Positions 30,577-34,805 of a stretch of 64,000 bases of DNA are shown one piece after another; the first letter of the stretch is position 1, and each line of letters opens with the position of its first letter. The DNA lies in assembly GCA_901538445.1 (NCBI GenBank), contig LR594586.1:310001-374000 (forward strand). Direction: 5' to 3'. The DNA is from Gemmataceae bacterium (lineage in GTDB: Bacteria; Planctomycetota; Planctomycetia; Gemmatales; Gemmataceae). The notes below the pieces were generated by a model. It saw only the letters and a program-made list of their open reading frames with translations, had not been told where the DNA came from and searched no databases. The translations under genes and the position numbers were made by a program.

Positions 30577-31560
30577 TCACTCGGCCGAGAGGGTCTCGCC
30601 GCCGTTGCGGGTGACGACCGAGATCAGCGCCCGGATGTCGGTGTTCTGGCGGAGGAACCGCACCGACCCGTCGCAGAACAGGGCGTTCACGCCGCCCGTG
30701 TGGAACCCGTAGATGTGGCCCGTGCCGTCGGTGTTGTAGTACGGGTGCGGGTACGTGGCCCCGAGGTCCTCGCCGTTGGTCACGTTGATCGCACTGGTGC
30801 CCGGGAAGGTCGTGCCGCTCGCGTCCGACCCGCGGAGGATGAACAGCTCCGAGGCCGGGCGGCACCACCCGCCGCCGTTGATCCGCGACGACGCGGACGC
30901 CGTCACCACGAGCTTCCCGTTGCGGTAGATGTTCGGGCGGCCGGCCGACTCGGTCAGGTGCAGGGTGTTCGACAGCCCGTCCGTGAACGCGTTGAAGTTC
31001 AGCTTGGTCGTCTTCGAGATCGCCCCGTTGCTCGCGTTCCCGGACCCGGGCATCGCCGGGGAGACCAGGCTGGTGAGGGCCGGGTCCACGCCGTAGAAGC
31101 CCGAGTAGTCACCGTTGGCCACGATCGGCGACCAGGGCGTGGCAGTGTCCGGCGCACCGTCGATGATCGTCCCGTTCGGGGCCGACGGGCACTCGAACCC
31201 CTTCAGCCGGGTTCCAAACACGGTCGGCTGGGCGTGCCAGTTCGTGGTGAGGCTCACCTGGGAGAACAGCGGCCCCTGCTCCATGTACGGGAGCAGGTAC
31301 GTGGCCCAGCGGACCCGGACGGTGCTCGTGGCGTCCGGGCGGATGTTGCTCGGCAGGCCGCCGTTCGGGTCATGGTAGTTGTGCAGCGCGAGCCCGAGTT
31401 GCTTGAGGTTGTTCTGGCACTGGGCGCGGGCCGCGGCCTCGCGGACCTTCTGCACGGCCGGCAGCAGGAGCCCGATCAGGACCGCGATGATCGCGATCAC
31501 GACGAGCAGTTCGATCAGCGTGAACCCGCGGCGGGTGCGGGCGAGGAGAAACCGGGTCAT
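30577..31560 (-). CDS. DUF1559 protein with type IV pilin-like N-terminal methylation motif
   Basis: This 327-residue secreted protein begins with RRGFTLIELLVVIAIIAVL, the prepilin cleavage/methylation site and hydrophobic helix. It continues with the DUF1559 pattern LLPAVQKVREAAARAQCQNN, LGLALHNYHD and the C-terminal HxGG segment FHTGGVNALFCDGSVRFL. Such major-pseudopilin-like proteins occur in dozens of copies per planctomycete genome and are probably surface or fibre components processed by a prepilin peptidase. The gene lies 50 bases after the small lipoprotein gene (same strand), a pairing common in these genomes. Confidence 0.96.
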   Translation of the reverse strand: MTRFLLARTRRGFTLIELLVVIAIIAVLIGLLLPAVQKVREAAARAQCQNNLKQLGLALHNYHDPNGGLPSNIRPDATSTVRVRWATYLLPYMEQGPLFSQVSLTTNWHAQPTVFGTRLKGFECPSAPNGTIIDGAPDTATPWSPIVANGDYSGFYGVDPALTSLVSPAMPGSGNASNGAISKTTKLNFNAFTDGLSNTLHLTESAGRPNIYRNGKLVVTASASSRINGGGWCRPASELFILRGSDASGTTFPGTSAINVTNGEDLGATYPHPYYNTDGTGHIYGFHTGGVNALFCDGSVRFLRQNTDIRALISVVTRNGGETLSAE

Positions 31561-31610: not shown

Positions 31611-32051
31611 TCACTTCAACTCGATCGTCGCGAGGTCGGTCGGTGCGGTCTGCACCTGGGCCTTCAGGCCCGACGTTTCCGGCTTGCCGAACTTGGCGGC
31701 GAGAAAGTTCACGGGGGGGCCGTCCGGGTCGCCCCGCTTCACCGGCGAGAGCCACCACTCCACGGTCACGGCGTAGTCGCCGGCCGCCGCGCCGTCGCCG
31801 GCGGACACGCTGGTGAGCTTGAACGTGCCGTCCGGGCCGACCGTCGCTCGCGGCTTGACCGTGTCCGGGGCCGCGCCGACCGGGTGGAACACCACCGTCG
31901 CGTGCTCGGCCGGCTTCCCGTTGATGAGCACCTTGCCGGTCACCGGGTACAGCGGCGTTTCTTTCTTGCCGCAGCCCGCGGCAACGGTGGCCAGGGTCGC
32001 GGTGAGGAGCGCGAGCCCGAGCCGAGTTCGGAGAGATCCTGTGAGGGTCAT
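31611..32051 (-). CDS. Small lipoprotein with carboxypeptidase-regulatory-like beta domain
   Basis: The 146-residue protein has a lipoprotein signal (LALLTATLATVAAGC, lipobox VAAGC or AAGC). The beta-sandwich-like sequence YPVTGKVLINGKPAEHATVV ... RATVGPDGTFKLTSVSAGDG ... GDYAVTVEWW is the usual layout of planctomycete carboxypeptidase-regulatory-like/transthyretin-like proteins. It is probably anchored on the outer side of a membrane. It sits directly upstream of DUF1559 in the same transcription direction, and a 49-codon gene precedes it. Confidence 0.85.
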   Translation of the reverse strand: MTLTGSLRTRLGLALLTATLATVAAGCGKKETPLYPVTGKVLINGKPAEHATVVFHPVGAAPDTVKPRATVGPDGTFKLTSVSAGDGAAAGDYAVTVEWWLSPVKRGDPDGPPVNFLAAKFGKPETSGLKAQVQTAPTDLATIELK

Positions 32052-32128
32052 GGGCCTATTGGGGTTTGGTGTGTGCGAGGGTCGGCGTCTGATCGAACAT
32101 CCACCAGGGGCGGGGCACGTCGGCGGGG

Positions 32129-32278
32129 TCACGCGCCTTGACAAAGACACCCCTGCGGGACCGCTCGCGGCCCCTCGACGAGCATCGACTCGTCGTCCGG
32201 CGAAGCGATCACCCCGTACTCGGCACCAGGCACGCGCCCGGCCAGGAGCTGGAAGTAGCGATCAAACAAGCCACTCAT
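32129..32278 (-). CDS. Small 49-residue protein with strong ribosome binding site
   Basis: The frame from ATG 32278 reads MSGLFDRYFQLLAGRVPGAE, then YGVIASPDDESMLVEGPRA, and ends PQGCLCQGA with TGA at 32129. An almost ideal Shine-Dalgarno GGAGGTGA stands seven bases before the ATG, which is unusual in this window and is the main support. A C-x-C pair near the end could bind metal. I recognise no family. It is 77 bases upstream of the lipoprotein gene on the same strand and could be the first gene of that transcript. Confidence 0.5.
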   Translation of the reverse strand: MSGLFDRYFQLLAGRVPGAEYGVIASPDDESMLVEGPRAVPQGCLCQGA

Positions 32279-32295
32279 TGCCGTCACCTCCGATG

Positions 32296-32356
32296 CACGA
32301 CTAACATCATCGTTGAAGTCGTGTTGAAGAGGATATCGGCAGTTTCACGACTTTGC
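32296..32356 (-). promoter_or_regulatory. Promoter-like sequence and inverted repeat before the 49-codon gene
   Basis: On the minus strand TTGCAA and TATCCT are 17 bases apart (four of six consensus matches each). Downstream of them, CACGACT (32317-32323 complement) and AGTCGTG (32296-32302 complement) form an inverted repeat between the possible -10 and the ribosome site. A third AGTCGTG copy overlaps the start of the spacer. This could be an operator or leader hairpin. Confidence 0.4.
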
Positions 32357-32403
32357 AAGTAGAGAAACTCGTGTTTACCACAGACTTGTCGCAAAATGAA
32401 ATC

Positions 32404-32428
32404 AGCACGCTGCTTATGGCAGCGTGCT
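32404..32428 (-). terminator. Terminator after the CysA-like gene
   Basis: AGCACGCTGC and GCAGCGTGCT pair over 10 bases around a 5-base loop. On the minus strand GATTTCATTTTGC follows, giving a T-rich tail 27-50 bases past the stop. Confidence 0.7.
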
Positions 32429-32454: not shown

Positions 32455-33522
32455 TCAGATTGCGTAGTCGCCGTCGAAAATCTTCCCCGACTTGGGCGTG
32501 ACGTACACCATTTCAGTCGGCTTCAGAGTGAGCAAACGGTAGCGGTCGGGAGTCACGTCCACGGTGATGACGAGGCCGAAGTCCTCGGCCATCAACCGCA
32601 CCTTCACGACCGACCCCGCCGGATTGATGTGCAGCACCTTCGCGATCATGCAGTTGCCGCCCTCGGCGGTGCGGGAGATGTCCAGTTCGTGCGGGCGGAT
32701 GTAGGCGTCGATCTTGCCGCTGTCGTTCGTGCTGAACAACTTCGTCGGCAGTTCGACCGTGCCCGAGTTCCCGAGCAGCGCCTTGCCGCCCTCGACGCGG
32801 ACGGGGAGCTTGTTCACGTTGCCGAGGAAGTCCATGACGAACGCCGTGGCCGGGTGCTCGAACACCTCGATCGGAGTGCCGACCTGCTCCACCTTCCCCT
32901 TGTTCATGACAACGACCTGATCGGCGACCTCGAACGCCTCCTCCTGGTCGTGCGTCACGAAGATGCTGGTGACGTGGAACTCGTCGTGGAACCGGCGGAG
33001 CCACGAGCGGAGTTCGGCCCGGACCTTCGCATCGAGCGCGCCGAACGGCTCGTCGAGCAACAGCACCTCGGGGTCGGGCGCGAGGGCTCGCACGAGCGCG
33101 ATCCGCTGCCGCTGCCCGCCCGAGAGTTCGCCCGGGAAGTGCTTCGCCTTCTCTTCAAGCCGCACGAGCCGCAGCAGTTCCATGACGCGGTGCTGAACCT
33201 TGTCCTCGGCGGCCTTGCGGACGCGCAGGCCGAACGCGACGTTCTCGAACACCGTCATGTGCTTGAACAGCGCGTAGTGCTGGAACACGAACCCGACCTT
33301 GCGGTCCTTCGCCGAGTGGCGGGTGACGTCGTCGTCCTTGAACAGCACGCTCCCCGTGTCGGGTTCCTCGAGCCCCGCGATGATGCGGAGCAGCGTCGTC
33401 TTCCCGGACCCGGACGGCCCGAGCAGCGCGACGAGTTGCCCGGCCGGGCACTCGACCGAGACGTTGTCGAGGGCCACGAAGTCCCCGAATCGCTTGGAGA
33501 CGTTTTGTGCGGTAATTGACAT
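32455..33522 (-). CDS. cysA: Sulfate/molybdate-type ABC transporter ATPase (CysA-like)
   Basis: The 355-residue ATPase shows Walker [17 protein letters not shown] (about residue 35), Q-loop [20 protein letters not shown], signature [16 protein letters not shown], Walker [18 protein letters not shown] and H-loop [14 protein letters not shown]. The C-terminal third (from about 245) is a TOBE-like regulatory domain with [10 protein letters not shown], typical of CysA. Permease and binding-protein genes are not adjacent, so it works with components encoded elsewhere or the assignment to sulfate is only approximate. It is divergent from the FGE gene. Confidence 0.88.
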
Positions 33523-33680
33523 GGTGCGGGGCCGGGGGACAGCGATGCGGTGTTAGATTCGTGGCGGGCCGCGGTTCCGAACCCGCGGCAATGCTTTATC
33601 ATTATTCCGGTCAAGTTGGTAGGGGAAGTCGCCGCCGCCCGTTGTGCGGGGCCGACATTGTCACCTCAGCGAGCGACTCG

Positions 33681-34805
33681 ATGTCGAAGAAGTCACGCGC
33701 CCGACAACAGCTCGCGCAAGCGACCGCGGCGGACACCGCACCGGCGGCTCACGCGCCGCGCGGTTCCTGGAAGTGGCTCGGCCTCCTCGCGCTGGGTGTG
33801 GTCGTGGGCGGCGGCGCGTACCTGCTCCTGAACCCGGGCGGGCCGCGCGGCCCGCGACCGCCGGGGATGGTGTGGATTCCCGGCGGCACGTTCACAATGG
33901 GGACGAAGGACGCCAACCCGCACTTCTTCGACGCCCGTCCCGAGCACGACGTTGAGATCGACGGCTTCTGGATGGACGAGACGGAGGTCACGAACGCGCA
34001 GTTCGAGGAATTCGTGAAGGCGACCGGCTACGTCACGGTGGCCGAGCAGAAGCCGACGAAGGAACAGATCATGGCGAACCTCCAGCCGGGGGTGCCGCCG
34101 CCGCCCGACGACAAGCTGGTCCCGGCGTCGCTCGTGTTCCGCCAGCCCGACGACCCGATCCCGTGGGCCGACGAAATGAACTGGTGGGAGTGGCTCCCGG
34201 GGGCGAACTGGCGGCACCCCGAGGGGCCGGGCAGCGGCATCGCCGACCGCATGAACCACCCGGTCGTTCACGTGTGCTGGAAGGACGCCGATGCGTACTG
34301 CAAATGGGCCGGGAAGCGGCTCCCGACCGAGGCCGAGTGGGAGCGAGCGGCCCGTGGAGGGCTGGTCGGCAAGACCTACGCCTGGGGCGACGAACTCCCC
34401 GGCGACGGCGGCACCTGGCGGTGCAACATCTGGCAGGGGCCGTCGCCGAAAATTAACACGAAGGCCGACGGGCACGTCCGCACCGCCCCGGTGAAGTCGT
34501 ACCCGCCGAACGGGTACGGGCTGTACGACGTGGCGGGGAACGTGTGGGAGTGGTGCAGCGACTGGTACGCACCGGACTACTACCTCAACGCGCCGCTCAA
34601 GAACCCGCAGGGGCCGGCCGGGAGCTTCGACCCGCGGGTGCGGGAGAACGAGAACCCGTACGCGCCCAAGCGGGTGATGCGGGGCGGGTCGTTCCTGTGC
34701 AGCGACGGGTTCTGCTCGCGGTACAAGCCCTACGGCCGCGGCCAGGGCGACGACGACACCGGCCAGTCGCACGTCGGGTTCCGCTGCGCCAAGGACGCGA
34801 AGTGA
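33681..34805 (+). CDS. Formylglycine-generating enzyme (SUMF1-type), membrane-anchored
   Basis: FGE converts a cysteine of sulfatases to formylglycine. The 374-residue protein has an N-terminal membrane helix (WLGLLALGVVVGGGAYLLL) and then the FGE fold: GMVWIPGGTFTMGT, DGFWMDETEVTNAQFEEFV, HPVVHVCWKDADAYCKWAGK, RLPTEAEWERAARGG, NVWEWCSDWY and HVGFRC. The catalytic cysteine pair is retained as C340 and C345 (FLCSDGFCSRYK), with the same C-x4-C spacing as the human enzyme, so true formylglycine synthesis is plausible rather than a mere fold relative. No sulfatase lies adjacent, but planctomycetes encode many. Confidence 0.93.
   Translation: MSKKSRARQQLAQATAADTAPAAHAPRGSWKWLGLLALGVVVGGGAYLLLNPGGPRGPRPPGMVWIPGGTFTMGTKDANPHFFDARPEHDVEIDGFWMDETEVTNAQFEEFVKATGYVTVAEQKPTKEQIMANLQPGVPPPPDDKLVPASLVFRQPDDPIPWADEMNWWEWLPGANWRHPEGPGSGIADRMNHPVVHVCWKDADAYCKWAGKRLPTEAEWERAARGGLVGKTYAWGDELPGDGGTWRCNIWQGPSPKINTKADGHVRTAPVKSYPPNGYGLYDVAGNVWEWCSDWYAPDYYLNAPLKNPQGPAGSFDPRVRENENPYAPKRVMRGGSFLCSDGFCSRYKPYGRGQGDDDTGQSHVGFRCAKDAK

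Follow-up and report, generated by a model that had tools for sequence, protein, structure and literature searches.

Among bacterial +1 frameshifts, the classic example is the release factor 2 (RF2) site. The +1 sites of yeast Ty1, EST3 and ABP140 (CUU AGG C, CUU AGU U) are eukaryotic and lie outside leader ORFs, unlike the locus described here, and to our knowledge they do not include a Shine-Dalgarno (SD)-like stimulator. The mycobacterial leader ORFs of Canestrari (2020) are said, by the title of that work, to be leaderless and poly-cysteine. In the excerpted text of PMC12421855, the prfB motif consists of CTTT three nucleotides past an SD-like block, and the premature stop is recognizable by RF2 in 100% of the surveyed genomes. 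The available portion of a 2016 review (PMC5009743) describes leader-ORF frameshifting on ermCL with telithromycin, treats frameshifting on pheL as incidental, and reports one yeast comparison in which a sense codon was a poorer partner than a stop; it also states that starvation ("hungry codon") frameshifting could give starvation-specific trans-frame proteins, of which "no examples are known." The main text of PMC3711429 has "planctomycet" once, in a table row, and does not contain "Gemmata". Searching the open-access literature, we found no bacterial case of +1 frameshifting that involves a sense codon, starvation or cysteine; by that literature, the sense-codon RF2-type leader signal described below is provisionally new.

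We analyzed a window of 64,000 nucleotides, the whole stretch of DNA presented above, from a 7.86 Mb Gemmataceae genome (G000). It contains a 49-codon frame, ORF1, that is probably a leader gene subject to programmed +1 frameshifting of the prfB kind, in which the Cys codon UGU would occupy the A site. The genes around it are as follows.

32455..33522, minus strand: cysA, sulfate ABC transporter ATPase (TIGR00968, 385.8 bits, over the cut-off)
32404..32428, no strand assigned: hairpin terminator-like site between cysA and ORF1
32129..32278 (ATG at 32278), minus strand: ORF1, putative leader peptide gene of 49 codons, with homologues in 13 other genomes and an N-terminus under purifying selection
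31611..32051, minus strand: lipoprotein-like gene without an SD, with a signal-like N-terminus (Pfam matches weak, all below cut-off)
30577..31560, minus strand: DUF1559 / H-X9-DG prepilin-like protein gene (PF07596, PF07963, TIGR04294)

ORF1 is the first gene of a lipoprotein/DUF1559 operon, and a co-oriented DUF1559 gene lies downstream in 13 of the 14 loci, which agrees with the proposal in the earlier note that the frame regulates or belongs to this transcript; a regulatory role is likely. Directly upstream is cysA in 11/14 loci (the exceptions being G005, G011 and G006), its end ~146-285 nt from ORF1. Homologues, the window's own genome included, were found in 12 of 59 genomes, in 12 of the 19 of the genus, in 14 of the 95 of the family and in 14 of the 397 of the class, which confines ORF1 to two sister genera among 185 in the class (2/6 sister-genus genomes positive); the class-wide search scored at most 17 candidates per genome, and distant copies may be missed. 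Other sister-genus matches (E 0.05 to 1) lay within frames of at least 160 aa and were dropped.

Among the 12 own-genus sequences, ORF1 columns 2-28 have a mean pN of 0.15 and pS of 0.60 (pN/pS ~0.25), and the linker after column 28 has a pN of 0.51 and pS of 0.54; the N-terminus is therefore selected as protein and the linker hardly at all. Disruption of the frame in close relatives, which the earlier note had named as fatal to its proposal, was not seen. This selection pattern is what would be seen across the N-terminal columns if ORF1 encoded an ordinary small protein that ends in a cysteine tail and shared a transcript with the lipoprotein and DUF1559 genes; however, the linker has no visible amino-acid constraint, the C-x-C ending is not retained while the nucleotides of the ending are fixed at silent positions, and structure prediction is poor (an AlphaFold2 model with two short helices, mean pLDDT 61). 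ORF1 also has no family match in Pfam, NCBIfam, PHROGs or Rfam, and we regard the small-protein reading as decidedly unlikely.

The leader of ORF1 carries four elements.

32353..32358, minus strand: -35 hexamer TTGCAA (TTGNNN in 12/12 own-genus leaders)
32330..32335, minus strand: -10 hexamer TATCCT, preceded by GCCGA and 17 nt from the -35 (TANNNT at 17-nt spacing in 17/17 leaders)
32296..32323, minus strand: 5' leader hairpin CACGACT...AGTCGTG (arms 32323-32317 and 32302-32296), with covariation
32284..32291, minus strand: Shine-Dalgarno sequence GGAGGTGA, with SD-like sequence also before ORF1 in relatives

The TTGCAA/TATCCT pair had been picked out as promoter-like at its 17-nt spacing, and it is conserved in relatives as T(T/G)GNNN-17-TANNNT in 16 of 17 leaders (the first hexamer of G115 is TAGACG). 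A strict sigma-70 scan reported no promoter at the ORF1 leader; by our own count the pair has 8 of 12 matches, and the scan threshold is 9. The inverted repeat noted earlier is present, but it sits between the -10 and the SD rather than between the hexamers. It starts a few nucleotides past the -10 and would therefore be expected at the 5' end of the mRNA. Across 14 leaders, 72.7% of the cells of an 11-pair structure are paired, versus 63.3% in shuffles and at most 48.1% in slid versions, a control in which the structure is favored by having been defined on the window's own sequence; changes on both sides occur in 8 of its 11 pairs. The outer 7-bp stem is paired in 84.9% of cells over 17 leaders (78.8% shuffled, at most 42.9% slid), with both-side changes in 4/7 pairs, a number reached by 17 of 500 shuffles; its further pair types were reached by 63 of 500. 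These compensatory changes make a hairpin close to the mRNA 5' end a more plausible reading of the repeat than a protein operator. The hairpin is weaker in some genomes, with 3/7 pairs broken in G013, G010 and G008 and only three pairs left in G014. Leader hairpin and promoter are also kept without ORF1 at loci L144, L146 and L147: in sister-genus genomes where no ORF1 turned up, the lipoprotein gene of G111 and G113 directly follows this promoter and hairpin and an SD, and the DUF1559 gene of G112 follows the promoter and hairpin.

The SD does lie near the ATG as first described, but not at seven bases: counted to the start codon, the distance is 5 nt from the end of GGAGGTGA and 8 nt from the end of its GGAGG core. 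Strong SDs are indeed scarce in this neighborhood: of the window's 41 gene-like ORFs, 5 have GGAGG ahead of a possible start, and no such site precedes the start of cysA or of the lipoprotein gene. Its presence in 14 genomes of two sister genera, the conserved promoter, the covarying hairpin and the SD make it very probable that ORF1 is translated as a small gene under its own promoter and SD, as the earlier note had proposed. A search with the promoter pattern ACTTGNNNAGT...CCGATA revealed no regulon: at 0-1 mismatch it matches ORF1 in 9 genomes and one other place (G005), and at 2 mismatches, which are needed at ORF1 of G002 and G014 and do not reach G016, the total of 52 is not above the control of 66.

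The evidence for frameshifting is concentrated at the end of ORF1 and in the sequence that follows.

32150..32153, minus strand: GGGG, an SD-like block within ORF1 that ends 3 nt ahead of the shift codon (G at -7/-6 kept; GGRG in 9/14)
32141..32146, minus strand: candidate shift site CTT TGT (CUU in the P site, Cys codon UGU in the A site), in 14/14 genomes and set against a cysA control
32056..32142, minus strand: +1-frame extension of 28 codons, VKARDPAD...KPQ and then TAG, forming a C-rich, G-poor spacer

The last shared codons of ORF1, CTT TGT, are invariant at the nucleotide level in all 14 genomes. Both are uncommon: in 101 gene-like ORFs around 11 ORF1 loci, a set picked by a GC3 rule and uncurated, CTT makes up 195 of 3341 Leu codons (5.8%) and TGT 63 of 355 Cys codons (17.7%), and across the 14 ORF1s CTT is found at just one of 74 other Leu codons. 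As a control we used cysA from 13 of the 14 ORF1 genomes (it was not found at the G006 locus): none of 29 invariant Leu columns and neither of 2 invariant Cys columns keeps one codon, and the 21 of 215 invariant degenerate columns that do include none ending in T. These counts and the cysA control together indicate that the invariance of CTT TGT is not due to codon usage. Only one other degenerate invariant residue within ORF1 keeps one codon among the 12 own-genus sequences (F10, TTC, which does not end in T). Ahead of CTT, G is found at -7 in 13/14, at -6 in 14/14 and at -4 in 10/14, with a purine at -5 in 13/14; positions -7 and -6 span two codons whose residues change, the codon ending at -7 encoding Q, R, A, P or M. 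The full GGRG is seen in 9/14, with GGGT in G010, GGAT in G008, GGTG in G014, and GGGC and AGGC in the sister genus (G114, G115). A weak terminator-like hairpin of 5 pairs (window 32149-32161, minus strand) ends on this SD-like block and could mask it.

Conservation of this kind, at the level of nucleotides, would also be expected of a small RNA or protein binding site made up of CTTTGT and the GG block, for which the frame is irrelevant. Across 19 genomes the 13-nt core signal GGRGTGYCTTTGT has 15 occurrences, of which 9 lie at ORF1, including the only one in the window's genome; a reversed control pattern occurs 5 times. The phase of the signal is nevertheless fixed, codon plus codon and always 3 nt past a block that contains GG, which is also how prfB is arranged in these genomes, and a binding site leaves the open +1 frame (see below) unexplained; we consider it quite unlikely. 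The C-x-C ending had been singled out as a motif of the protein, a reading that the comparison does not sustain: its first Cys is lost in 3/14 (replaced by W in G014 and by R in G114 and G115), yet CTTTGT never changes, a pattern that favors a signal for ribosomal shifting over a metal or redox motif. For the same loss we rejected a RiPP precursor and a metal-binding or disulfide C-x-C; among the neighboring ORFs, inspected by eye, and seven query proteins that were traced, no recurring maturation enzyme was seen near ORF1. The codon after UGU is the stop UGA in 10/14, and the stop is the fourth codon in the other 4. Selenocysteine insertion or stop readthrough was also rejected, the inner TGA being merely the end of ORF1 and UGA not being adjacent in G000, G005, G009 and G014.

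Set beside the RF2 site of prfB (AGGGGG-UAU-CUU-UGA), ORF1 has the SD-like block, the 3-nt spacer, the CUU-U slip sequence and an open +1 frame, and a slow A site is proposed here too. It differs in that the A site holds the sense Cys codon UGU in 14/14 rather than the RF2 stop UGA, and in that the site lies within a leader ORF whose +1 frame reaches or enters another gene. The two genera also have prfB itself in the frameshifted form: among 22 genomes searched, one of which (G003) yielded a fragment set outside the count, CTTTGA followed by a +1 frame of more than 250 codons is present in 21/21 loci read (L116-L136), with a short first frame MN[PA]DLRRRT...RDSL* and the SD-like CGRGAC in all 21.

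In 13 of 13 loci the +1 frame either enters the next gene or stays open until at most 12 nt before it, as the -1 frame does in 8 of 13; the starts of the next genes were picked by us from the sequence, and the operon-less G014, where the +1 frame ends 44 nt before the next chosen ATG, is outside the 13. The +1 frame enters the next gene in frame in five (DUF1559 in G007, G002 and G016; lipoprotein in G009 and G011), overlaps its start in six (by 4 nt in G013, G010 and G008, by 14 in G006, and by 34 in G115 and G114), and ends short of it in two (12 nt in G005, and 4 nt in G000, the window, between the +1-frame stop and the lipoprotein ATG). The 0 frame ends 46-77 nt short of the next start in the same 13 loci. 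Because the shuffle probability of this openness is 0.014 (product over 10 lineages), openness alone argues only modestly for a shift. GC at the three +1 codon positions is 0.687/0.537/0.660, lowest at position 2 as in coding DNA (p 2e-4, phylogeny ignored); position 3 is not above position 1, an excess that ORF1 does show (0.706/0.498/0.745). Of the variable columns in the +1 frame, 8 of 17 in the trio G013/G010/G008 and 5 of 10 in the sister pair fall at third positions, a plurality or half only. Internal initiation in the +1 frame was rejected, as no ATG, GTG or TTG precedes the site in that frame in 10/14 (one is present in G005, G007, G014 and G002). A -1 frameshift was likewise rejected: in G013, G008, G115 and G114 the -1 frame ends 43-67 nt short of the next start, and in G007 it ends 14 nt short.

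The spacer itself is unusual in composition. C exceeds G in 13/13 spacers, in the top 5% of own-locus windows in 7/13, and a Fisher combination over 10 lineages gives 1.6e-7, although these windows are not independent. The spacer extended by 40 nt of the next gene is less folded than mononucleotide shuffles in 12/13 (folding z positive), and a stimulatory 3' RNA structure was rejected on that result. In being C-rich and little structured, the spacer is like a Rho loading site; it may thus be exposed by ribosomes that terminate in frame 0 and covered by shifted ones. Such a spacer would also suit a cysteine attenuator without any frameshift, in which a stall at UGY-CUU-UGU alters spacer folding or Rho exposure and the CLC ending is a regulatory Cys codon pair, the more so as Cys codons end a leader ORF beside cysA and U-ending codons are rare. 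We think this unlikely: no alternative stem or U-run was seen in the 13 spacers, the first Cys of the pair is the one missing in 3/14, and attenuation leaves both the invariant rare CTT and the GG fixed 6-7 nt before it unexplained.

We return to the frameshift reading and propose the following course of events. The transcript would start at or near the hairpin, and ribosomes would load on the SD and arrive at CUU (codon 37-48) just past the SD-like block. When Cys-tRNA is plentiful, UGU would be decoded and translation would stop, leaving bare the C-rich, little-structured spacer of 46-77 nt. When UGU is slow, peptidyl-tRNA-Leu would slip from CUU to UUU, pulled by the hybrid of the SD-like block with the anti-SD, and the shifted ribosome would translate in the +1 frame as far as the lipoprotein or DUF1559 start. 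The output may be the delivery of shifted ribosomes to the next start, or the shielding of the spacer from Rho; the common element would be a ribosome arriving at the start of the next gene, not a fusion protein. In several genomes some SD-like sequence precedes the next start itself (for example GGAG in G007, G002 and G016), and coupling is thus not required in those. The signal, its spacing, its conservation at the nucleotide level, the open +1 frame and the gene order are read directly from the sequence, and from them we infer the slipping itself, cysteine as its driver, and an output by translational coupling or Rho protection.

That cysteine supply controls the shift is a tentative proposal. 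UGU never varies, not even in genomes that have lost the other Cys codon, and sulfate permease genes scored over the cut-off in 14/14 ORF1 genomes versus 7/11 without ORF1; together with the adjacency of cysA, these observations favor a cysteine link but are suggestive only. Against it, the first Cys codon is dispensable and 3/14 loci have no nearby cysA; UGU could instead be a constitutively slow codon. When cysA was sought in 11 genomes of the two genera that lack ORF1, six were positive at E <= 1e-100 (G001, G004, G111, G112, G113, G116), and it was not found in G003, G012, G015, G017 and G018, three of which are 65-92% complete; the 1.5 kb past cysA in G001, G004 and G116 hold other ORFs. 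The sulfate permease genes precede cysA in G013, G010, G008, G002 and G007, and two lie far from it in the window's genome (G000:C3:999949-1001599).

Two described leader systems come nearest to such a control. As in ermCL, ribosomes off the leader frame would enter the spacer and turn on the next gene; there, however, the trigger is an antibiotic and the output is RNA unfolding, and an SD-like/CUUU signal is not described in the available portion of PMC5009743. As in the mycobacterial poly-Cys leaders, which are cysteine-responsive according to the excerpted text of PMC9094748, a short ORF with Cys codons stands ahead of an operon. Unlike leaders that are, by their title, poly-Cys and leaderless, ORF1 is SD-led and has one invariant Cys codon and a shift signal; tandem Cys codons in a leaderless ORF were not found. 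Possibly, then, ORF1 is a natural bacterial sensor in which a +1 frameshift at a sense codon of an RF2-type signal reports cysteine starvation and gates the operon for surface proteins that lies next to a sulfate permease. If this is true, the physics of the RF2 site would have been reused as an amino-acid sensor, giving a working "hungry codon" frameshift switch with surface-protein output set by the cysteine level.

The G014 locus (L010) differs from the others. The lipoprotein and DUF1559 genes are missing downstream, ORF1 stays, the hairpin and the SD-like block are weakened, and CTTTGT is kept; ORF1 looks here as if it were decaying, and the retention of CTTTGT without the operon counts against the frameshift reading. 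Divergent from cysA in the window (33516-34805, plus strand) is a gene that we take, from its GMVWIPGGTFTMG motif, to encode a formylglycine-generating-enzyme-like protein, and relatives of it lie within a few kb in 6 of the 14 loci.
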